Shown: positions 1-58,300 of the stretch, one piece after another
Layout of the letters: the number at the start of each line of letters is the position of its first letter
Position numbering within the stretch: the stretch's first letter is position 1
Assembly: GCF_932294415.1 (NCBI RefSeq)
Contig: NC_065545.1
Coordinates: 18,232,857-18,296,856, forward strand
Direction: 5' to 3'
DNA from: Quercus robur
Taxonomy: Eukaryota; Streptophyta; Magnoliopsida; Fagales; Fagaceae
DNA: 64,000 nt
Position numbers and translations under genes: made by a program
The notes under the pieces: model-generated
What the model was told of the DNA's origin: nothing
The model's database searches: none
The model's input: only the letters and a program-made list of their open reading frames with translations

Positions 1-580
1 TATATAGCAATATACCACTTTTTTAGGTACTCGAGCTTGGCAAGCTCGAGTACCATGTTTTTTTAATCCACTATCGCCCCATATTCAAGGAGCCCTATAG
101 TGGCGTTTTTAAGCCCTATAGTGACGTTTTCGGGCCAAAAAACGCCACTATAGGGCCCCTTGAACCTGTTATGGGGACTTATAAAAAATTTTTGCAGGAA
201 AACGCCGCTATAGGGTCCAAAAACGTCACTATAGGGCTTAAAAACGTCACTATAGGGCCCCTTGAACCTGTTATGGGAACTTATAAAAAAATTTTTGCAG
301 GAAAACGCCGCTATAGGGCCCGAAAAACGTCACTATAGGGCCCCTTAACCTGGTATGGGGCTTAAAAACGCCGCTATAGGGCCCGAAAACGTCACTATAG
401 GGCTTAAAAACGCAACTATAGGGCTCCTTGAATATGGGGCGATAGTGGATTAAAAAAACATGGTACTCGAGTTTGCCAAACTCGAGTACCTAAAAAAGTG
501 GTATATTGCTATATAGTTTGGAAACAGTGTTTCTAGGCAAATTATTTTGAAAATTGACGGTAATGGGCCAATTTTGCCAA
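1..580. mobile_element. Fold-back element copy 1, left end cut by window edge
   Basis: Positions 1-136 and 380-515 form an inverted repeat that I aligned base by base: it has three mismatches in 136. Each arm contains its own 29-nt palindrome around CTCGAG (26-54 and 462-490). The loop, 137-379, holds direct copies of a 16-bp motif and a repeat of about 102 bp. Sequence outside the right arm, to about 580, resembles the outer ends of the related elements at 7693-8248 and 36313-36598, so the element probably ends near 580 and starts before base 1. No coding capacity is seen. Long inverted arms point to a non-autonomous DNA transposon, possibly Mutator-like, but the class is inferred. Confidence 0.75.
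92..424. repeat. Array of 16-bp motif AACGYCRCTATAGGGC
   Basis: Eleven copies are visible. Two are inverted (92-107, 113-128). Nine are direct, starting at 141, 201, 222, 243, 304, 327, 367, 388 and 409. Variation is concentrated at two positions (AACG C/T C A/G CTATAGGG). The same motif recurs in the element at 7693-8248 but nowhere else that I saw in the window, so it belongs to this transposon family. Confidence 0.85.
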
Positions 581-7094: not shown

Positions 7095-7225
7095 TATTTG
7101 CTGATGATGACAAACATTAAGGCATGAGCAGCAACAATATTATTTGCGCACTGTGTAGGAATTACTACATGGGTTGTTTGTTGCAAATGAAGAATGTGCC
7201 AAAATGCTAATCTGAGGCTCTCACT
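7095..7225 (+). other. Non-coding unit, copy A (possible small-RNA gene)
   Basis: This segment recurs, diverged, at 7616-7692 plus 8249-8275 (shared: CATGAGC, TTTGCGCACT, GGTTGTT, AATGTG, CTAATCTGAGGC). Copy A has ATGATGA at 7104-7110 and CTGA at 7212-7215, which match C- and D-box consensus. It also has an imperfect hairpin (GCAACAA at about 7131 against TTGTTGC at about 7178). I cannot see a convincing terminal stem and I do not recognise a known snoRNA, so this is only a candidate. It sits downstream of a Site II/telo-box promoter. Confidence 0.3.
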
Positions 7226-7615: not shown

Positions 7616-8275
7616 ACATGAGCTACAAAAATACTTTGCGCACTAAGATTATCTAGATTGGTTGTTGAAACAATGAATAATGTGTCAAAAGGGAGTTTTT
7701 TTTCTAAATAACAATAAATATTAAAAAATTTAGTTAATTGCCACGTTTCAAAACAATTTTGAAAACTAGCATCTCGAGTGTCTAAAACTCGAGTTCCAAG
7801 ATAGAACTCGAGTTTTTAAGTCTCGATTTGCAAGTGGATTAGTTGGAAGTTGGAAAAAAATCAAGCTGAAAATCGAGTTTTAAAGACTCGATTTCCATAA
7901 ATTGAATAAAAACGCCGCTATAAATCTATAAAACGTCACTATAGGGCTTAAAAACGCCACTATAGGACCCCTAAACCTGTACTTATAAAAAAATTTTTTT
8001 GCAGGAAAACGTCGCTATAGGGTTTTAAAACGTCACTGTAAGTCTTAAAAAAACCACCATAGGTTAAATTTTTTTTGCATGAAACTCGAGTTTAAAAGAC
8101 TCGAAATCTAAAGCGAGTCTTTCAGACTCGAGTTCTAATATGGATCTCGAGTTTCTAAAACTCGAGATGCTACTTTCCTATATTGTTTCAAACGTTGCCT
8201 AACTAACTATTTTGAATGGTTGAAGAAATCTGATATGCACAATACCTCTGTCAAAAGGCTAATCTGAGGCATTAT
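7616..8275 (+). other. Non-coding unit, copy B, split by a fold-back element
   Basis: The left part (7616-7692) and right part (8249-8275) together resemble copy A at 7095-7225. The intervening 556 bp are the fold-back element. The 10-bp TGTCAAAAGG occurs at both junctions (7683-7692, 8249-8258). If the insert is removed, the junction resembles copy A (AATGTGTCAAAAGGCTAATC against AATGTGCCAAAATGCTAATC). Confidence 0.5.
7693..8248. mobile_element. Fold-back element copy 2
   Basis: The arms are inverted repeats. The left has AACTAGCATCTCGAG near 7765-7780 and the right, reversed, has AAGTAGCATCTCGAG. Outside these, TTGCCACGTTTCAAAAC (left) matches GGCAACGTTTGAAAC (right, reversed). The arms are packed with short palindromes around CTCGAG, including a perfect 25-nt one at 8144-8168. 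The core carries the same AACGTCACTATAGGGC motif and the same ACTTATAAAAAAATTTTT-GCAGGAAAACG stretch as copy 1. The flanking 10-bp repeat suits a Mutator-like duplication. The inner arms begin about 35 bp inside the stated limits, so the exact ends are uncertain. Confidence 0.75.
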
Positions 8276-14520: not shown

Positions 14521-14830
14521 AAAAAATTAGGGGTACCGACGAGTCTAAATTTTCTATCCCACTCTTCCTGCTTCACTATATACTCCACAAATAAAAACAT
14601 GTCATATGTCCATCTATTTAATTAAATGCTAAATTTATGTCTTTTATTATTTCAATTACCTAAATATGATGGGTTATTTATTTATTTATTTATTTTAAGA
14701 AATTGAAATAATAGCAGGCATAAATTTAACATTTAATTAAATAGATGGGCATGTGGTATGTTTTTATTTGTGGAGTATATAATGGAACAGGAAGAGTGAG
14801 ACAGAAGATTTGGATTCAATACCGACACCC
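14521..14830. mobile_element. Hairpin MITE with arms of about 100 bp
   Basis: The left arm (from about 14545) and right arm (to about 14815) match in reverse over about 100 bp. They share CACTCTTCCTG, ATATACTCCACAAATAAAAA and CATCTATTTAATTAAATG, with roughly 10% difference. The loop of about 40-60 bp contains a TTTA run. Weaker matches reach outwards to ACCGAC on both sides. I could not define a target duplication. Confidence 0.75.
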
Positions 14831-17452: not shown

Positions 17453-20400
17453 TTATTCACAAGCGATCTTTGTGTCAAAGCTGCTAAGACATATGGCAAA
17501 TGCTTGGAAAGCTGAGATTGGATACTGATAATCCATTGTGAATACATCCTTTCCCACCTTTCCAAACTGGAGAATGACATTCTCATGCTCTGGCCCAGCA
17601 ACTCCATTGTCAGTAGAAGCAACCAGCTGAAAATTCTTAACTGAAGCAACAGTCACCCGTCCATTGAAGTTCAGACACCAGCACTGGAGTTGTTCATGCC
17701 ACCTAGGGGCCTTGTTCCTTAAGACCAGCATTCCTTCAGTTGGAACAGATGAATGTCCAGATCGGAAACTATCTGTCCGGATTGATTTTGATCTGAAGAA
17801 AGGGATGGATGGAAAACTATCCACACTGCCAAGGAGGAATTCAGTCGGTGTGGGAGCCACACCTCCTGGCTCAACAGCAGAGTTGGGAATGGCATCCATG
17901 ACACAGTGCATTCTTCTAGGACCCCTGGTTTCCAAAATATTAAAATCACATTTTCACATAGAGAATATAGTGTAGTAACTGACGATGACGGTTGCCAGTT
18001 CTGTGTTGTTTTTCATTTTCTATGAAGAAAAAGAAGTACTTCAGCACCATCTTTCATACCTGGAGCCCAAGACATTCAACTCATATGAAATATGAGCAAT
18101 GGAATAGTTGCCAGGAGGGACTTTGGGGGTGACTTGTCTATTAATTAGCCTGGTAGAACGACATTTGGTGACTTTCACTCCAGCATGTGGTGGTTGCGCA
18201 TCAAATATTTTGAATTTGGCACCCAGAAAGTTCGATCTATATCACAGAAAGTGCAATTTACACTTAGGCCAACAAGATAAACAAGAACCAGTCCTGTCAT
18301 GCCAGCTCAACATACCTCAATTTTCCAACATAGGTGCTACTCCCTTTTGACACATCATCAGAATTTAAAGAGATGATGTAATCTGTGTGAGTAGGACGTC
18401 GACACTTCCGTGCAGCAAGAAGGAACTTTCCATCATCAGTTGAAGCTGCCAAGATAAAAATGCAAAAGAGCAGCTCAGAGATGAGACTAAAAGAAAAGCT
18501 GAACCTTTCCTTCTCTAGTAGGAACCTAACTCTGTACCAATCAGACTAATCTCACAAAAGTGAAATCAAATATAACATAGACTGAAAAGAAGAAACGTTT
18601 GGTTATTTGACCTTGATTTAAGCCGAGGTAAAGATAATATGTTTGGCTGCTACGATTCCGTTTGATGAAACACTGAAGGAGGGAGTCCCTTGGGCCAGGC
18701 TGCAAAAAGATAACCAAGGATTTTGAATGTTAGCTGGATGACAAAAGGCCACATGCAATAAAGATTATAACCTTACAAGAAAATACTTGATAGCAAGGTT
18801 TTCTGAGGAGGATAGCTGGCATCCAGTATTTGCTAACATACGAACATCATGAAGTACTTGCAACAAAATTCAAAATTTCAAGAATCACAAATATAAGCAG
18901 GGCTTGGATAGTCTTTAGAAACTAACCATCATTTAGAAGCAGCAATTCACTCCAAAATGGCAAATGCTACTGCTAATAAAGCCATTCCCCTGACTACATT
19001 AATTTTTTTTGTTTTTAATGGAATGCTTTTTTTAATTGGTAATAACACATGCACCCAATGGATCTTGAACCCTCAACCTCACCCTCCAACTTACTCTCAC
19101 AAGAGGAGGAGGTACCATTTAAGTTGAGCTCATTGGCATTTTTATCTAATGCTTTAGATTCAATATATTCCAAATCCATGTTCATGATCTGAGAAATTGA
19201 CCATAACCGTTTCAAGTTAAATCATGTATCAACCCATAATTAACATGGATTTGGAATATATTGGCCAAATGTTTTACTAATATCACAAAACAAAAAGAAA
19301 ATTAAATCCACTTTACATTTAGCTCTCTTGAGTGTTGTAATCTACATTGGTCTCACTTTATGAAAAGATGAAAGTTTGCTTCATTTTTAAAACCATGTTT
19401 TGCACCTGTGACAATAACTCTCTGTCTTGATGGACTATAACTTTCTTTTTCATTCCCCTCTTTTCTGTGTACAATGCGAGTGGATGGATCGCATTCTAAA
19501 AAATGTTTTAACAAATATCTGAATGACACTGGACCAGAATGCATTGATGTAAAGGTCTCCATTGATTGCTTGGTTGGAACCATAGAGGCATTGATATTTA
19601 TAAAATGCCTAATTTCCCAGATTATCAAACTTCTAAGCAATATGCAATCTAACTTTTCTGATTTAATAATTTCCAGATTCCTCACAAACATCCCCAAACA
19701 GTTCTTATAATAACAGAGTGAGAGCCCATGTCTACTTTTTCTTCAAACCCAGATCTTCCCCCATTATCACACTGATAGTTGTATACGGATTTTCGTTCTA
19801 AAAAAATGTTGCAGGAAATTGGTACACAAAAGAAAGAACATTATAAATTGCATGACCTTTTTTTTATAAATATAAATCACAGGACCTATTCTAAATTAAA
19901 CCCATTAGTATGTGGGATCATGCAACCAGTGGATCAAATAGCTAAAGCTCAAGCATATGTTGTGCTTCTGGTTCCAAGCACCACTGGGTGGACACTGGAC
20001 AAACTATTAAAACCAACCTTCTGACTCCCCAAATTCCAAAAGATTATGAGGCAACATCTTTGCTGACAAATGAAACTAATAATGTCATTGTTTATAGACC
20101 AGTTCCCACTATCCATTATAAACAAATTGAAAGGAAAAAAAGTCAAATTTGAAAATCCACTTGCTGCTCTTAATAGCTAGGAAGGTACATCATGTGAAAT
20201 TTTCATTTCTAATTGTGGAATTACAATGATGGTAAACATCTAAACCATACAGATACGACTGTATCATAACAAGAAACAAATATAAGGTAAAAACACAATG
20301 AAGAGGAACATGGTTGAATCATAAGCAGCAACTCATGTATGTTCAAACCTGCTTCAAGGAGATTGGAAATGTTAACTTGCCAGAAACCTCAGGGGATTTC

Positions 20401-36312: not shown

Positions 36313-36598
36313 GGGCAAAAATGACAAAATACCCCTTTTGCCCAAAAGATCTAGCAAAATGCTCATGTTTTGAAACTATCTAGCGAAATGCCCCTGTTTT
36401 GAAACTCGATTTGTAGAAAATCAAGTTATAGGCAATCAAGCTTAAAAAAAAAAAAAAAAAAAAATTAAGGAATTCCATTTGAAATTTTTCAAGGAACTCG
36501 AGTTCCTTACTGAAATTCGATTTTTAGAAAATCGAATTTCAAAACAGGGGCATTTTGCTGGAACTTTTGGGCGAAATGGGTATTTTGCCATTTTGGCC
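36313..36598. mobile_element. Fold-back element copy 3, 286 bp
   Basis: The left end reads GGGCAAAAATGACAAAATAC and the right end, reversed, GGCCAAAATGGCAAAATACC. The arms match over about 65 bp and share GCCCAAAAG and AAAATGCCCCTGTTTTGAAA. Inside are a perfect 29-nt palindrome at 36512-36540 (13-bp stems around ATTCGATTTT, loop TAG) and GGAACTCGAGTTCC at 36493-36506. Flanks read GGCTAAAGT (36304-36312) and GGCTATAAAGT (36599-36609), a near 9-bp duplication as in Mutator-like elements. It lacks the AACGTCACTATAGGGC array of copies 1 and 2. A 20-base A run occupies the centre. Confidence 0.75.
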
Positions 36599-36865: not shown

Positions 36866-39503
36866 TAGTTCAAAGAAGAAGGAGTTACTGTGGAAAGCAG
36901 AAGAATCGACTGCCAAAGGTGGAGACTATGAGCCAGTTGTCACCTTTAGACGTGATCTCAATGCTTTGCTTGATAGGGAAAGCCGGATGTGGAGACAGAG
37001 AACAAGAACACAATGGTTGGTGAAAGGAGATAAGAATACAAAGTGTTTTCATGTGGTGGCTACTCAGAGAAAAAGAAGAAACTTTATAAAAGGAATCCGA
37101 GAGAAGGAAGGGGTATGGCAGTCAAAGGATGAGGTAGTGTCTTCAATTTTTGTTGACTTTTATACCAGACTCTTTACGTCATCAAATGCCCATGATATTG
37201 ACCGAGTCTTAGAGGGAGTGAATAAGGTTGTTTCTGACAGTATGAATGCCGAATTGTTGATGCCTTATAGCAAAAAAGAGGTGGATGTAGCTATTAAACA
37301 AAAGGCACCGTTAAAAGCACCAAGTTCAGATGGGATGCCGCCCATTTTTTATCAATCCTTTTGGCAAAATGTGGGCTCAAAAGTTATTGAAGCTATCCTC
37401 TCCTGTTTGAATTCTGATGATTGCCTTTTGTTTTGTAGGTCAAACGCAACTGAATGCCAAAAAATTCAGCTTCTTCTTGATTGGTACGAAGCTGCATTGG
37501 GCCAGCAATTGAACAAGGCCAAGACCACTATCCAAGACCACTATTTTCTTTAGCCGAAATACTTCTGCAGAGGTTCAACAGGAGATTAAGGATCTTTTGG
37601 GAGTGCCGGCCATAAAGCAATATGACAAATATTTGGGTTTGTCATCTCTTGTGGGGAGGCAGAAAAAAGCTTGCTTCAATCAGATTAAGGAAAGGATTTG
37701 GAATAAGATGCAAAGGTGGAAAGAGAGACTATTATCTCAATCCGGGAAGGAAGTAATGATTAAGGCCGTGATTCAATCCATCCCCACTTACTCTATGAAT
37801 GTGTTTCGCTTGCCACTTGGGTTGATTAAAGACATTGAGTCTATGATCCACAAATTTTGGTGGGGGAATCAAGATAACATAAGGAAGATGCAATGGGTGA
37901 AGTGGAGGATGCTCTGCTCCTCAAAATCTCTTGGAGGTATGGGATTTCGTGATCTTCGACAATTTAATGATGCACTCCTTGGTAAACAGGTGTGGAGGCT
38001 TTTTCATGAAAAAGATACTTTGCTTTATAAAGTGTTCAAGCCAAAATATTTTCCTTCAGGTTGTATTCTGGATGCTGAGATCAACCCACGAAGCTCTTTT
38101 GCATGGAAAAGTATAATGCAGGCAAAGGATGTTATTTGTAAGGGTGCAAGATGGCATGTTGGGGATGGCTCTTCAATAGATATATGGAAGCACAGGTGGA
38201 TAGACTCTTCAGGGGGTGGAAAAATACTTTCTCTTCGGCTGAACTCATCTCTGGCTGTAGTAAATGATTTGTTTATCATTGGAACGAAGATGTGGAATTC
38301 GGACCTGATTGATCAGAATTTCTAACCCTTGGGAGGCTGAATGCATAAAGAGCATGCCTGTTAGTTTTCATACTGACAGGGATTCACTTATTTGGCCGCG
38401 GACCTCAGATGGAGTATACTTGGTTAGGAGTGCTTACCAGATTTTGGCTAATGATTCTCTCTTATCCCAGGCAGGTTCATCCAATCCAGATGACTCAAAA
38501 CCCTTGTGGAATGGTATCTGGAAACTCAAGGTCCCTAACAAAGTCAAGCACTTCATGTGGCAGGCAGCAAATGAATCTCTACCTACAAAGTGCAACCTCT
38601 ATGCACGACATGTCCTACTTGAAAGTAGTTGCGGACTGTGCGAAGAGTTTCCAGAAGACGTCATACATTGCCTATGGCTGTGTGATCACGTCAAGTGTAT
38701 TTGGCTCTCGGATCAAACCTTCCACTACCCACGTACAAGGAATTTTAGATGCTTTGGTGACTTGGTGTCCTTTGTGTTATCAGAATTACCATCAGGTACT
38801 GCTGCGCTATTTTCTATGGTAGCTTGGTGTATCTGGACTAGACGTAACAAGTTGAGAGAAAGGCAACCCGTGTGGGATGTTGGAGAAACTGTGAAGAGAG
38901 CAAGGGAGTTGCTGTAGGAATTTATTGATGTTCAAGACACTCCTGTACGGTCTGCTATTCCTCGGGTGGAGGCGAGATGGAAGCCACCTGGTGCCGGGCT
39001 TTTCAAGATCAATTTCAACGGAGCTGTGTTTGCGGACAGGTCGCTGGCTGGGCTGGGTATCGTCATCCGCGATGAGTTCGGGCTAATCATCGTGACCCTT
39101 AGTTAGAAAATCCCTTTGCCAAGCTCGGTGGAATTGGTGGAAGCTCTGGCAGCACGGCGTGCTCTTATTTTCGCCCAAGAGATCAACATCTTCAAGGCTG
39201 AGGTGGAAGGGGACTCATTGAAAGTCATTCAGGCACTCAATAACCCAAAGCCCAACAGAACTCAGATGGGCCACATTATAAGTGATATCCAAAGATTAGG
39301 TGCTGGCATGCAGAGTTGTATTTTCAATCATACACGTAGGGGGGGCAATAGATTAGCCCATTCCCTTGCAAAGAGAACAGTTTTAGCTGTTGATACAGAT
39401 GTGTGGTTAGAAGAACTACCACAAGACTTGGTTGATGTATTTCAGTTTGATTTGCCTTAATGAAGTTGACTTACCTTTCCCTCAAAAAAAAAAAAAAAAA
39501 AAA
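36866..39503 (+). mobile_element. L1-type LINE, 5'-truncated and internally deleted
   Basis: It encodes, in order: the region before the reverse transcriptase (WLVKGDKNTKCFH, then KAPSSDGMPPIFYQSFW); a reverse transcriptase reduced to its end (DDCLLFCRS); the thumb/connection ([30 protein letters not shown]); a zf-RVT segment (VPNKVKHFMWQAANESLPTK); and RNase H (FKINFNGAVF, VEGDSLKVIQALNNPK). It ends in poly-A at 39484-39503. Near 37411 the sequence jumps from LSCLNS to DDCLLF, so roughly 200 codons of the polymerase core are missing. A 13-bp duplication (37519-37531 and 37532-37544) shifts the frame, and another shift lies near 38320. TAG stops at 38915 and 39104 sit where CAG (Gln) fits. 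Endonuclease and ORF1 are absent. CTTCAAAATAAAC (about 36853) against CTCCAAAATGTAAC (after the poly-A) may be a worn target duplication. Confidence 0.9.
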
Positions 39504-43610: not shown

Positions 43611-45692
43611 CCTCAAATTTCAATATGTTGTAATTTAATTCTCGAAAATTTTAAAAGTTATAAATTTCATACTTCGGTCAATTTGTCACTAAATTTGTTC
43701 TAGATCATGTCAGTTTTTTTAAGGTGCCATGTCAATATTTTGTGTCACATTTACTATTTTTTCATGGTTGATGGAGGAAAAAAATGGGTGCTTTTTAGGT
43801 GTGTGTTGATATCAAGTGGGCCCGGATTACTGGTTTTTTGATTCCTGACCGTTGGAGAATGCGTATTAACTATTTGTTTTTTGAAAGTTTGAGTTTGAAA
43901 TCTTTGTACTTTTGTGGCCTAGTGTATTTTACTATTTTTAATGGGGATTTGAATTTTGACATACAAGTGAACAAAAGGTGACTGAGACTAGTGGGTGGAT
44001 CTCCTCAAATGAATACATACAAAATATCTTGATCTAGGAATAGGATTATTCGCTTAAATCAAAAGTAATTAAGAACAACAAAAAATCTGAATACTATATA
44101 TGTAATAGCGGACAGCCGTGGGTTTTGTGTGAATGGTATATTTAGACGTTGAAGACTTGAGTTAAGTAAATTATAAAATACTACTCATAAAGGTAAAGGG
44201 ACAAAGGGGGTGGGGGGGTTGATACTGAAAAGGTTAGGGACAAATCAACTCAATGGGTGGCTTGCTGTAAGTAGAAGATATCTCACGAATGTGGAGGGTT
44301 CACATACCTGAGAGGGAGGATGCATAATGAGACAATTATTGTGTCGTAGGTTGTTCATATCTCTAGTCTTGGATCAAACAAAGATGTTAACAATAGGAAA
44401 AGTTTCCACCATTGTTTGGTATATGCCATTACATTAAATATTTTGATTCATGGATATGAATAAGTTCCAAGTCTCTAGCTAGTACAAAGCCATAAAGACT
44501 ATAGTAGCAAGCTAGCTGACTAACAAAATAACAACTTGTATAGTGATGAAAAAGATTGTGCATGACCTTGAGTTAAATGGGTAAAGGGGTCCACTCATAT
44601 GATGAACTGGTAGACTTGATTATTGAGAATAGGATTGGGGGAAATGAATTTTGGAGACAAAGGACCTCGGGATCTGGGAAGTTTATGGCGCTGGTTCTAA
44701 TAGGGGATATGTTAGTCAGTGATATGATGATTGTAGGGAATGCAATAGTAAGAGCACTCACTGTTTTCATTTTGGTCCTCTCTGTTTTGATTACCCTTTA
44801 ACGTCTTGTTTAATGTAAAGACACTTTCTGAACATACAAAGCAGATTCTGAGTACTAAAGAAAGTTGGAAGGTCCATGGGACCCTATAATAATTCTTTGA
44901 TCTTCCCTTTTTTTATTCTTTATGTTCTCCTTTTCTCCTTTCTAATATTGTTGGTTAAACATGGTAATTGGCTTAGTTTTAATTGACGACCATCTCTATT
45001 CTTATATGATAGAGCTAGAGGAGAAGACAAAGGCCATGCTAAAATTGATTGAAGAAGATGCAGATTCCTTTGCTAAGCGTGCAGAGATGTATTACAAGAA
45101 ACGACCAGAGCTAATTAGCATGGTTGAAGAGTTTTATCGTACTCACCGCTCATTAGCTGAGCGATATGATCAACTTAAGTCCGACTCTGGAACACGCCTC
45201 CTCACAACCTTGGCGTCCCCATTTTCTTCGTCTAAATCTAAACCAGAAAAGTTAATGAGTGTGGTGGATCAAACATATGACAGCTACTCGGAGACTTGTG
45301 ACACTGAAGAGTTAGCTGAGTCTGAAGTTGATGATCCCGAAGAGGAAGATGAACCTCTAGTTGATGATCAAGAAATGAAAGAGGAGGAAATTCCAAGTGG
45401 GGTCTGCAATGATGAAGTGAGGAAGTTGAAAGAAGAAATAGAGAGGCTTAAAGAAGAGAATAGAATTCAAAAGGATCAACTAATGCAGAAAGATGAAGAG
45501 AAGAGAGAGGTGATAAGGCAGTTGAGTTTGGCAGTGGATATGCTTAAGGACGAAAATGTGAAGCTGAGGAAGCGTGTGGCTAGAGACTCCAACAACAAGA
45601 AACGTACCCCTTTAGAGTTCAACAAATTGAAGGGAGCATTTCTAGGGAAGTTATTCAATGGGTTTTCCAAGAATACAGTTGTTGCTTTGTAG
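43387..45692 (+). CDS. NET3: NET3-type actin-binding protein (KIP1-like NAB domain)
   Basis: There are two coding exons, 43387-43477 and 45013-45692. The junction (GCTG|GTACCT ... ATGATAG|AGCTAG) restores Glu31, and the total is 771 nt, 256 aa plus stop. The N-terminal NAB domain (about residues 8-90) shows [56 protein letters not shown] and [11 protein letters not shown]. These are the signature of NETWORKED proteins, which bind actin filaments at membranes. An acidic linker follows, then a coiled coil at about 164-222 ([17 protein letters not shown] ... [14 protein letters not shown]) and a basic tail. The short length fits subfamily 3; Arabidopsis NET3C links actin to ER-plasma membrane contact sites with VAP27. 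Any of three tandem ATGs could start; the first is chosen. The frame is open for 52 bases upstream of the exon 2 acceptor, but that part is intron. Confidence 0.93.
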
Positions 45693-50000: not shown

Positions 50001-50189
50001 GCTACGAATTTGAATGTGCCTACCAATGGACTTTCACTGAATAGAGATGTATTCAGAATGCTTTTAGTTTCATATACTTCTTTTGTATTGTTGCATCCCA
50101 TGTGTTTGGTAAAATTTCTTTTAGAAATCTTATGTGTTTTTCTCAAATCTATTTGTTATTTTTATTTTGGTCATTTTATTACAAATTGT
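47004..50189. other. AGP upstream flank and AT-rich intergenic sequence
   Basis: The first few hundred bases are the AGP promoter side (minus strand), with CT-rich leader sequence near 47060-47090. A 60-bp tandem duplication lies at 48137-48250 (unit containing GTATTGAGTTAAGAGAC). T and A runs lie near 49011-49033 and 49556-49579, and a (CT)n run at about 49780-49800. No gene is recognised. Confidence 0.55.
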
Positions 50190-50749
50190 AGGGTCACATT
50201 TTTCTGGCCAAGCCTAAGATGCATGGAACCTTAGGCCAGTGAGCCCGGTACAATGAATTTGTAGAGAGTGGGCCAAAGAGCCAGACTTTAGTGTATGGAC
50301 AACGGTCATCACGGTGTTCTTCAAGGACCAAGTTTTCTAGAGAGAATTGGTCCTCAGCACGATCCGAGGAGCTTTTTCTGGTACCTCTGGTGTGTTGGGG
50401 GCGGGTCTTGGTCCTTGAAGAACACCGTGATGACCGTTGTCCATACACTAAAACCTGGCTCTTTGGCCCACTCTCTACAAATTCATTGTACTGGACTCAC
50501 TGATCTAAGGTCCCATGCATCTTCTGGCTAGACCCCGCCCCTAACACACTAGAGGTACCAGAAAAAGCTCCTCGGATTGTGCTGAGGACCAATTCTCTCT
50601 GGAAAACTTGGTCCTTGAAGAACATCGTGATGACCGTTGTCCATACACTAAAGCCTAGCTCTTTGGCCCACTCTCTACAAATTCATTGTACCGGGCTCAC
50701 TGGTCTAAGGTCCCATGTATCTTGGGCTTGGCCAGGAAAACGTGACCCC
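50190..50749. mobile_element. Compound inverted-repeat element, unclassified
   Basis: The left end GGGTCACATTTTTCTGGCCA matches the reversed right end GGGGTCACGTTTTCCTGGCC. An arm of about 140 bp (with CCGGTACAATGAATTTGTAG, AGTGTATGGACAACGGTCAT and TTCTTCAAGGACCAAG) occurs three times: forward at 50190-50330, reversed at about 50408-50535 and reversed at about 50605-50749. A second block (ATTGGTCCTCAGCAC, AGCTTTTTCTGGTACCTCT) pairs 50345-50400 with 50540-50600. It is less AT-rich than its surroundings, and no coding capacity is recognised. A clear target duplication was not found. Confidence 0.7.
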
Positions 50750-50819
50750 ACACAAATAATTAGCATCTCCACCATCAAATTTTTAGTTAATATGAAATTT
50801 CTTGGTAAGCTTTTACTTT

Positions 50820-52710: not shown

Positions 52711-53836
52711 TGTTGGGAAATTTAGACCTCGGTTGATAGAATTAACAAGTTTTAAACCCAAGTTGTTAATTAGATTTATTATGAATAAAACTTGTTAAAA
52801 TAAATAAACATTGTTTCTCAAAAAAAAAAAAAAAACATCAATATCATGTCAAAATCATGTAGTGGAAAAATAAATAAGATAAGATATGATGACTCAGGAA
52901 AACCAATGAAACAAACTAGTTTCACAGTAAAAAACCTGAGGGGAAACCTTCCCGAAAAGCAATTCACTATAGTTAAGAGAAGTTTCAGATCTAGTACAAA
53001 ACCTTTGTCCCTAGACTTTACAATCCCCGTAGATGAACTCACAGCAGAAACCTTCTACTGTTTTAGAACTTCTGAACTCTTCAATATATGAACACCACCC
53101 TTTGATGCACAAATCCCAGTACGTGAATAACCAACTGTGCAGATCCCAGTACGCGACTTAGTCACCAACTAAAATAAGATGTTGACTGCAAAATTCTTCA
53201 CTTCATCAACAATGAAGATCAATAAGCACTTGGTTACAGAACCTTAAGGCGCAAAAGACGCAGTAGCTTCTTTCAGAGAGAATAAGGTCTCGGTCACCTT
53301 TTTCATATGTTCTCCTTGTATTCTCTTATGTGACGGCCTCTAAAACAAGCCTTATATATGTCTAGGGTTGTGAGAAAAGAAACCATACACAAATAGAAAA
53401 GATTGGGCCGAAAATCAGATCTGGAAATCTAAATTCCCGTAACCTCGATAGATACCTCGATCGATCGAGAATCTGTCAAGCTTTATTAAATCTTGATAGA
53501 TAACTATTTGTCGAGCTATCTGTCTGCAGCTGTCGAGCTATCTGTCCACAGGTGTCGAGCTATCTATCCGCAGCTGTCAAGCTATCTGTCCACAGGTGTC
53601 GAGCTATCTGTCTAGTTTTAATGAATAGCCCTTCTTCACTTGTTTTTTGGTCTAATCTTCATGGCTTTAATACTAGACTTGAACAACATGTTTCTTGAAG
53701 TATTAAACACATCCTAGATCTATCTAATTACAAGTAAAGTGCGTTTTGTCAAAGGATTAGCTAATTACATAAATATTGACATATGTTCCTAACATGAATC
53801 ACATATGTCCTAACACGAATCACATATGTCCTAACA
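52711..53836 (-). mobile_element. Lone LTR of a Ty1/copia-like retrotransposon (fossil)
   Basis: On the minus strand it begins TGTTAGGACATATGTG, as do the LTRs at 55380 and 58764, and ends near CCCAACA at 52711. It also shares the stretches TTATGTAATTAGC and GCACTTTACTTGTA and the AACCCTAGACATAT block in the same order, so it is a related but distinct LTR, about 1.1 kb. No second LTR, primer site or internal region is seen beside it, so it is a solo LTR or a remnant. Flanking bases do not give a clean 5-bp duplication. The ends are inferred. Confidence 0.65.
53510..53615. repeat. 22-bp minisatellite inside the lone LTR
   Basis: Five copies of GTCGAGCTATCTGTCCACAG plus GT, or variants, start at 53510, 53532, 53554, 53576 and 53598. 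Odd and even units alternate slightly (TGCAGCT, CACAGGT). Confidence 0.9.
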
Positions 53837-55379: not shown

Positions 55380-58300
55380 TGTTAGGACATATGTGTTTCA
55401 CATGTTAAGAACATCTGTCATGATTTTATGTAATTGGCTTATCCTTTGACAAAATGCACTTTACTTGTATTTGGGTAGATTTAGGATGTGTTTAAATACT
55501 TTAAGAAACCTTGTTTCAAGATCAAGTGTTGAAACCTTCAACTCTGTCCAAGAAAACAAGCTGATAGTGCAAATTCATTAAAGCACGACAGCTGCATCTA
55601 TCGAGCTTAAGAAAGCTGTTCAAAGCCCGGTGTGCTCGACAGCTGCTCGACACCTCCTATCTGTTGAGGTTTAAGAATTTCAAAATTCTAATATGATTTT
55701 CTTGGAATCCATGAATATGTCTTTGGACTTTCTTTTCTCCTAACCCTAGACATATAAAAGGATTGTTTTAAGAGCCGTCAAACAGTTCACAAGTTGCACA
55801 AGCATTGAGCAAACTTTGTTCAAGCAAATTGTGACCGAAGACGAAGTTCTTGCCCTAGTTCATCTCTTTCTCTTGAAGAAGTTGCTGTGTATGTGCACGT
55901 AGGGTTTTGTGACCAAGCATCTTCTTGATCTTCATTGTGTGGATGAACTGAACAACTTTGCAACGAACAATCTTCTTAATTGGTGATTACAGTTGCATAT
56001 TGGGATCCGCGCAATTGATTAGTCACGTACTTTGGAGTCGTGCATCAAAAAGGGGAACTGTCACTATAGAACAAGTCCAATTGGGTATTGGGGTAAGGGT
56101 TCAACTGTAGGTTGGTAAGGTACTTGGGATTCCCTTACTTGTAATCGTTTGTTGTGATAATAGTAGAGTTTCGGGAGTGGTGACCTGAAAATCACCCGGT
56201 GGGGTTTTTGCAGTTAGGTTTTTCCCATTCGTAAACAAATCACCGTGTTATTTATTTTCCGCTGCTTAATTAGTTTATTGGTGATTTGTTTGTGCTACCA
56301 CGTGTTTGCATAATAAATTGATTAATTAATAACTTGGCTAATTAATTAATTAATTAATTTCTATCAAAAGGGGTCATTCAGTTTGTGGCCTATCAAGTGG
56401 TATCAGAGCAGGCACACTCTGATTAAAGTTTAATCTTTGCTGTGTTGATCCATTGACCCCTGTTGTCATGGCTGTAACCGGCTTGAAGAGATCATTGGTT
56501 TCAAATACATCTTGTTTTTCTAATCTCGATCTCTCTCTCGATACTTCTCTGATTTCTCTCCCAAACTCTCTCATCTCACTCCCTTAACTATTCCTCAAGG
56601 TTTCTTCAAGCTTTTTCAAGTTTTTCTTCACTTTGGTAAGCTTCTAATCCTTTCACATTCATGCATTTCATATTTTGAAACCTAGGTTTTGGGGTTTTTG
56701 AAAAATTTTGGGGTTTTTGAAAATTGATGAGTTATTATTGAAATTTTGGGATGGGTTTTCACTTAAATGAGTTTAAAACCTCATACATTGCATCACATTA
56801 GCATCATAATAGTATTGTAATGCATTTAGATGTGTGCTATCTGTTTGTGTGCTGATAGGTTTGGATTGGGCTGAGCCCATGATGCAATTTCTTTTGCATG
56901 TCACATGTTCATGCATTTTCCCATGCATATGTACTATCTTTTCAATATACTTGTTATATTTGAAATTGCTTGGGATTTTTCTGATTTTCTTTCTTTCTCT
57001 CCCTCTCTTTTGGTTTACGTTAGTCGTGTTTATGGAACCTAAGCGTAAATCCACTCCAGCTCGGAACCTTCTTCGTTCCGGAGCTTCTTCGTCCTGATCC
57101 TACACTATCTCATATTCGGTTCCGTGATGATGATGCCTTTAAGGCATTCTCGGAGATTTTTTCTAGACGAGGCATTCATTCGGAACGCTGAGTCATTCTG
57201 TCAGATTTTGCTGACACCAACCTTCCCTCTGCCATTCATAGTAGGGGATGGGAGTCACTATGTGACGTCCCGGTCACCTGTCCTCTCATGCTTATCCAGG
57301 AGTTTTACTCCAACATGCACGGGATTAATCGTTCAGTACCTCTTTTCTTCACTTGCGTTCAAGGTACGCGCATTCCTATCACACCGCAACTTGTTGCGGA
57401 TGTGCTTCGGGTCCCTAGGATAGAGTTTCCGGACTATCCTAGTTGTGAGCGTCTGAGGACTGTGTCCAAGGATGAACTTATGTCTGCTTTCTGTGAGCGC
57501 CCTTCTGTTTGGGGTGAGCGTCTGTTTACACCATGTCGACCTTTTGCTAAAGGTCCTAGATTCATGAACATGGTGATGACTTTTGTTTTGCATCCACTCT
57601 CTCACTATAACTCCATTACAGAGCCTCGTGCTCGATTTTTGCTATCTCTTCTTGAGCATTTTACTATAGATTTCCCTTCTCATTTCATTCTTTCTATTAT
57701 AGATGTTCATCTAGATTCGACGTCCCGTGATAAGCTCATTTTTCCTTCCGCTATCATGAGGATCTTATGCCATTTTTTCGTTCCTTTTCCCTTTTCCGAT
57801 CATTTCACTGTCATGTGTGCCATAGATTACGCTACCGTTAAACGTAGCGAGGCCCAGTTTCAGTCGCAGCAGTCGGATTCAGCAGCTCTTCCCTCCTGTT
57901 TAGCTCCATCTCGTTCTGCTTCATCCACGTCCGCTCCTCCCTTTTCTTCGGGCGATGTGACTTTAGGAGACATCATGACGCAGTTGCAGCGCATGGATGC
58001 ACTCTCTACAGAGTTGTATCAAGTAAACGTTTGTATCGGTCGTATTGCACAGCGATAGGCGTCCATGGGTGGTTTTGCTCCTGAGGCTACTCCTTCACCA
58101 CCTTCTCCCGTGGCTTCTGATTCTGAGGATGACGATGATGATGATGTTTCGGATGATGCTGATGGAGATGCTAGCTCTATCGATGAGATGTTTTCTTGAC
58201 ACTCTTACCCTTTGTCACTCGTGACAAAGAGGGGGAGTAGTTTTGGATATGAGAGTAGTTATTCTTAGGGGGAGAGTTAGTATATGACCATTTTGTTAGG

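Follow-up and report, generated by a model that had tools for sequence, protein, structure and literature searches.

Paired change and recurrent loop switching in the arm palindromes of a fold-back element family of Quercus robur: a possible trace of hairpin-templated copying

The two arms of a fold-back element at the start of a 64,000-nucleotide stretch of the Quercus robur genome (hereafter, the window) carry the same 29-nt palindrome in two versions, one with a C:G base pair where the other has T:A. The locus raises the question of how both halves of one base pair came to be replaced within a single arm. An earlier note on this DNA had reported that the arms differ at three sites and that two of these are the partners of one stem pair, and both observations proved exact. 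Between positions 1–136 and 380–515, the differences are located, counted outside-in, at 36 (C/T), 44 (G/A), and 102 (G/T). Positions 36/44 form C:G in the left palindrome (26–54, loop base 40 = G), whereas 480/472 form T:A in the right palindrome (462–490, loop base 476 = C), and both 14-bp stems are perfect. When three changes are placed at random, the probability that two of them become complementary partners within a single stem pair is P = 0.0022, which is an after-the-fact figure. In Markov-shuffled windows (n = 3), the longest stem was 9–10 and 2–8 palindromes had stems of at least 9; the real window contains 48 palindromes with stems of at least 9, many of which are (TA)n runs.

The element, designated as E1 (1–578), is truncated by the window start. 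The earlier description of 136-bp arms with three differences holds for the visible part, but the complete arms are 199 bp long and differ at seven sites (3.5%; the within-copy mean is 3.3% in 30 copies). The full-length element is 641 bp (G000:C41:18232794-18233434), begins 63 bp to the left of the window, and has GGCAAAA/TTTTGCC ends. Inside the window, it comprises the remaining part of the left arm (1–136), an interior (137–379) of ~21-bp repeats of AAAACGYCRCTATAGGGC in a single orientation, and the complete right arm (380–578), which is followed by the right copy of a 9-nt target duplication (579–587) that consists of nine A and, being of low complexity, is weak alone. The RNA fold of 1–515 had a z-score of −31.5, indicating fold-back capacity, and no reading frame of at least 150 aa was found in 1–580. 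The AAAACGYCRCTATAGGGC repeats are organized in higher-order units of ~103 bp and occur in one orientation both in the E1 interior and in part of a second element (7909–8063). The end of the right-hand repeat array of E1 recurs in inverted form within its left arm.

Two related, more diverged elements are present in the window. E2 (7693–8248) contains six 29-nt palindromes of the form TCGA-N11-TCGA, starting at 7769, 7803, 7868, 8081, 8108 (with one TCGA mismatch), and 8142, and is flanked by a perfect 10-bp target duplication, TGTCAAAAGG, on the forward strand (7683–7692 and 8249–8258). A paralogous empty site at approximately 7123–7218 matches the joined E2 flanks across the junction with a score of 83, compared with a shuffled maximum of 33. 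The region is a diverged local duplication (7123–7218 versus 7617–7692 plus 8259–8270), one copy of which holds E2 while the other is empty. E3 (36314–36598) contains palindromes at 36401–36429 (one TCGA mismatch) and 36512–36540. Its flanks, GGCTAAAGTG and GGCTATAAAGTG, were matched by eye as a near-duplication of 10 of 12 bases, of which an ungapped search recovered only a 9-mer with one mismatch. At the center of E3 (36491–36508) lies an 18-bp perfect palindrome, AAGGAACTCGAGTTCCTT, which by eye resembles a unit collapsed between two TCGA words. All eight exact TCGA-N11-TCGA words of the window fall in E1, E2, and E3. When one mismatch was allowed, 17 hits were obtained; ten of them are units of these three elements, and in the remaining seven only 5–6 of 14 positions pair.

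We searched the genome (785.7 Mb in 42 contigs), obtained 1625 first-look candidates, and analyzed E1 together with its 39 best-scoring matches among them. These 40 full-length copies share 95–100% identity. As they were selected for their high scores against E1, the family results given here apply to E1-like copies. Allowing an offset of a few bases from the element ends and keeping the best repeat, we found perfect direct repeats of 9–12 nt at all of the first 30 loci (14 of them on the minus strand; the GG of the element end is part of the two 12-mers) and direct repeats of 9–11 nt at ten of ten further loci, and thus target duplications in 40 of 40 copies. With these duplications, long inverted arms, and a short multicopy body that lacks a long frame, E1 is shown to belong to a non-autonomous family of fold-back MITEs. 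This family very probably falls within the Mutator superfamily, and as an element E1 is most likely of an ordinary kind, namely a fold-back MITE of that superfamily.

The family copies also reveal which arm changed. The T:A pair in most of the outgroup units of E2 and E3 had made the left arm a candidate for the changed one, and this assignment was overturned by the copies: among 60 palindromes from 30 copies, C occupies position 36 in 58 and G occupies position 44 in 59. Since C:G is common across the family, T:A in the right palindrome of E1 is derived. The loop base of the right palindrome, C at 476, is the minority state, found in 12 of the 40 copies.

The left loop base (position 40) is the most homoplasic site of the family. 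Across the 40 copies, it is G 21 times, C 16 times, T twice, and A once. When parsimony steps were counted on a FastTree tree of the copies that was built without the palindromes, site 40 required 13 steps, the highest number among 197 variable sites (331 steps in total), while the next site required seven and shuffled labels gave a mean of 15. It was highest or tied for highest in 60 of 60 bootstrap trees, with 11–16 steps; sites 443, 507, and 508 averaged 5–6 steps, yet reached 13–15 in some bootstrap trees. Changes between C and G accounted for ten steps at site 40 and three at site 476, compared with 14 across 639 other sites. The C/G change rate at the left loop base is thus approximately 450 times the per-site mean (10 steps at one site versus 14 at 639), and the frequency of complement changes there, far above that of other sites, is as expected of a template-switch hotspot. 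Switching is seen among close relatives: the loop base differs in 59% of 34 copy pairs that are 1.2–2% apart versus 52–61% of more distant pairs, and the single pair closer than 1.2% agrees.

These observations can be combined in one explanation, to which we give about even chances: the arm palindrome may be a local mutation hotspot through hairpin-templated copying. The hairpin would extrude during replication or repair, and the new strand would occasionally copy the hairpin from the opposite strand, so that it becomes inverted. In a perfect stem, such an inversion would alter only the loop base, exchanging G and C. More rarely, this process would transfer a mutation from one half of the stem to the other, and the right palindrome of E1, with T:A replacing C:G, would be a case of such copying between half-stems. 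The better supported step is the first, and repeated inversion of the hairpin by template switching is somewhat favored as the source of the loop flips. That the base pair of E1 itself arose by hairpin-templated copying is plausible but falls short of an even chance. The proposal in the earlier note of a hairpin-templated repair process therefore gains support from the G/C switching of the left loop on the copy tree, while the E1 pair, from which it had been drawn, is also compatible with chance.

In passages of PMC8794818, an inverted loop flanked by an unaltered perfect stem is described as a footprint of template switching, with 69 cases and enrichment. The combination of a paired change with loop inversion is hypothesized there to be the strongest support, and it was extremely rare (six cases) and not enriched. 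Homogenization of arms together with spacer inversion is described for yeast in part of PMC8604942. The right palindrome of E1 does combine a paired change with the minority loop base, but its neighbors on the tree have T (L004) and G (L005) in the loop, which means that the two changes may have arisen separately. Templated copying also faces counterevidence within the family. Flipping is far less frequent at the right loop base, with the three C/G steps given above, and the two commonest asymmetric stems, the TG variant (nine arms) and T37A (six arms), were not once seen inverted, although they represent few lineages. Mirror-image single changes are present (C32T/G48A and G27A/C53T), but C-to-T changes on either strand give the same mirror pairs, which consequently have an explanation other than inversion.

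The alternative that survives best, which we rate as distinctly possible though less probable than templated copying, is coincidence: two independent C-to-T transitions, one on each strand, in copies that are decaying and probably methylated. With C>T and G>A changes placed at random, the expectation for 40 copies is about 0.29 double hits that convert C:G to T:A, compared with one observed. Moreover, nine E1 changes are absent from all other copies or present in just one, and six of these are C>T or G>A. The change at oriented position 36 is not private to E1, as it occurs singly in three arms (L022R, L036L, and L037R); these arms speak for chance and, having been left uncorrected, against templated copying. 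Against coincidence, six such changes placed at random give, for E1 considered alone, a probability of approximately 0.006, or slightly more when the change at 480 is counted as a seventh.

A block exchange, by which a short conversion from a T:A sister family supplied the right palindrome of E1 and loop alleles were exchanged likewise, is unlikely. The right palindrome is identical to the 29-mer of sister locus L041, including the loop base, which keeps this alternative in play; L042 and L043 also have the T:A stem, and the palindromes of L041–L043 adjoin sequence that is 76–82% like the family arm. These three loci were retrieved by the T:A pattern itself, however, and their number is uninformative about frequency. 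E1 has its own family's flanking sequence on either side of the palindrome, which limits any conversion tract to ~30 bp or less. Exchange is further favored by the TG variant (positions 41 and 42), which is common to nine of 40 right arms and L043 and occurs in none of 40 left arms, and by wide conflict among common sites of the family. The conflict amounted to 19/21 at site 292 and 18/21 at sites 443 and 382, compared with 20/22 at site 40. Because common sites elsewhere conflict nearly as much as the loop base, exchange of sequence between copies may explain the loop pattern in part or in whole. The TG variant reads GGTGAG instead of GGCAAG in the loop region and was found in the right arms of L008, L013, L018, L022, L026, L027, L028, L030, and L035. 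No 100-aa frame was present in L041, and both L041 (1501–1828) and L043 (1066–1529) contain tandem arrays with diverged TCGA-N11-TCGA palindromes.

Exchange between the two arms of one copy was considered separately as a source of the loop flips. Recombination that swaps entire arms was rejected, because none of the 40 left arms contains the right-arm markers 8G or 9T. None of the 16 left arms with loop C carries the right-arm markers 8G, 9T, 12G, or 25G, and one carries the right-arm marker at 73. In five of the copies with a loop-C left arm, the right palindrome belongs to the TG type, which excludes it as the donor of the loop C. Arm-to-arm conversion, mainly in tracts shorter than ~32 nt on each side, is a possible source of the flips.

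The earlier note had also suggested that the hairpin itself is selected, separately from the pairing of the long arms, and the family argues against this view. In the 40 copies, 53 of 80 palindromes are perfect, and the stems contain 21 single changes besides the TG variant and one paired change, that of E1; the 21 are cells rather than events, as T37A alone contributes six, and the nine TG arms were counted apart. Low-frequency changes, defined as letters present in at most four of 80 arms, occur per site at 0.0076 in the stem (17/2240), 0.0070 in the outer arm (49/7039), and 0.0087 in the inner arm (57/6560). When all minor letters were counted in 60 arms, the stem (0.0196) exceeded its flanks (0.0153 and 0.0132). 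In simulations that scattered 23 changes randomly, 10.6% of trials produced one or more partner pairs. Stem positions thus vary singly as often as their neighbors, which is the pattern that the earlier note had itself set against selection. Since the stem mutates like the neighboring arm, nothing appears to protect the hairpin, and the palindrome is without selective protection in the 40 copies examined.

Covariation between elements is the observation that favors selection. Among the ten units of E1, E2, and E3, eight of 14 pairs have changed on both sides, and the covariation score of 0.284 compares with at most 0.125 when the register is slid and a shuffle mean of 0.124 (0 of 500 shuffles reached 0.284). 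Comparisons between elements gave 94 pairs altered on both sides versus 48.2 expected, although the unit pairs are non-independent. Without E1, however, the units of E2 and E3 barely covary (p = 0.17, 0.30, and 0.03), and in E2 (outer arm) and E3 the partner arms differ at 15 of 85 palindrome sites versus 17 of 108 flank sites, a comparison that omits the inner E2 arm, which is mostly gaps. Templated copying would yield the same covariation. Arms of Galileo elements are described in part of PMC3688188 as holding several transposase sites of this type. Nevertheless, a selected hairpin (acting in RNA or as a transposase site, for example) in which the second change of E1 compensated the first, is very improbable in view of the within-family rates.

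Compensatory pairs are usually taken as proof of a selected structure, and here one has arisen without a sign of selection. If hairpin-templated copying does account for the loop flips, the frequency with which a 14-bp hairpin is extruded and copied in inverted form in vivo can be read from the dispersed copies. Flips that are real inversions could then be counted to gauge template switching at short palindromes in vivo, free of the selective effects that complicate the picture for RNA genes. Present in many copies, the arm palindrome could perhaps serve as a natural record of hairpin inversions in a plant genome, a role that we propose tentatively.

Wider searches placed the element in context. 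The E1 patterns and DNA had no match in viral contigs, prokaryote genome contigs, plasmids, or phages, where a plant sequence is not expected, and no Rfam family reached threshold within the window. We found no report of the E1 family or of loop inversion in a transposon arm in the open-licence PMC literature, which is weak evidence of absence. Elsewhere in the window, other inverted repeats are located at 50187–50752 (219-nt arms, 94% complementary) and 14541–14817 (124-nt arms, 85%), and a ~22-bp tandem repeat around GTCGAGCTATCTGTC was recognized by eye at 53511–53620. Reading frames at 17453–17935, 38309–38917, 44961–45692, and 57288–58058 match Tub, zf-RVT, KIP1, and Transposase_32, respectively. 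KIP1 proteins are plant proteins, and the matches to KIP1 and to 'putative plant transposon protein' point to a plant origin of the window.

The closest known systems are the plant Mutator-like fold-back elements MuTAnT of Medicago truncatula and FARE of Arabidopsis, which, as described in passages of PMC4486113, resemble the E1 family in being short and non-autonomous and in having long, near-identical, modular fold-back arms and 9-nt target duplications; empty sites serve as evidence for MuTAnT as well. The same passages mention no arm palindrome at a fixed place, and MuTAnT inserts at TA repeats, whereas none of the target duplications listed for the E1 family is a TA run. The Tm1 Mutator/Foldback elements of root-knot nematodes share composite, repeat-bearing arms, target duplications of 8–10 bp, and MITE-like members with the E1 family, according to part of PMC3169594. 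Unlike E1, they reside in a nematode, their arm repeats are 13–15-bp tandem units, and their hairpin, located between the arms, is of the histone type. The template-switch hairpin mutations described in parts of PMC8794818 and PMC8604942 resemble the changes reported here in that stems are corrected and loops or spacers are inverted at short inverted repeats. Those mutations concern rRNA, microRNA, and yeast genes with few loop inversions, whereas in the E1 family a single loop base would have flipped approximately ten times in 40 copies.
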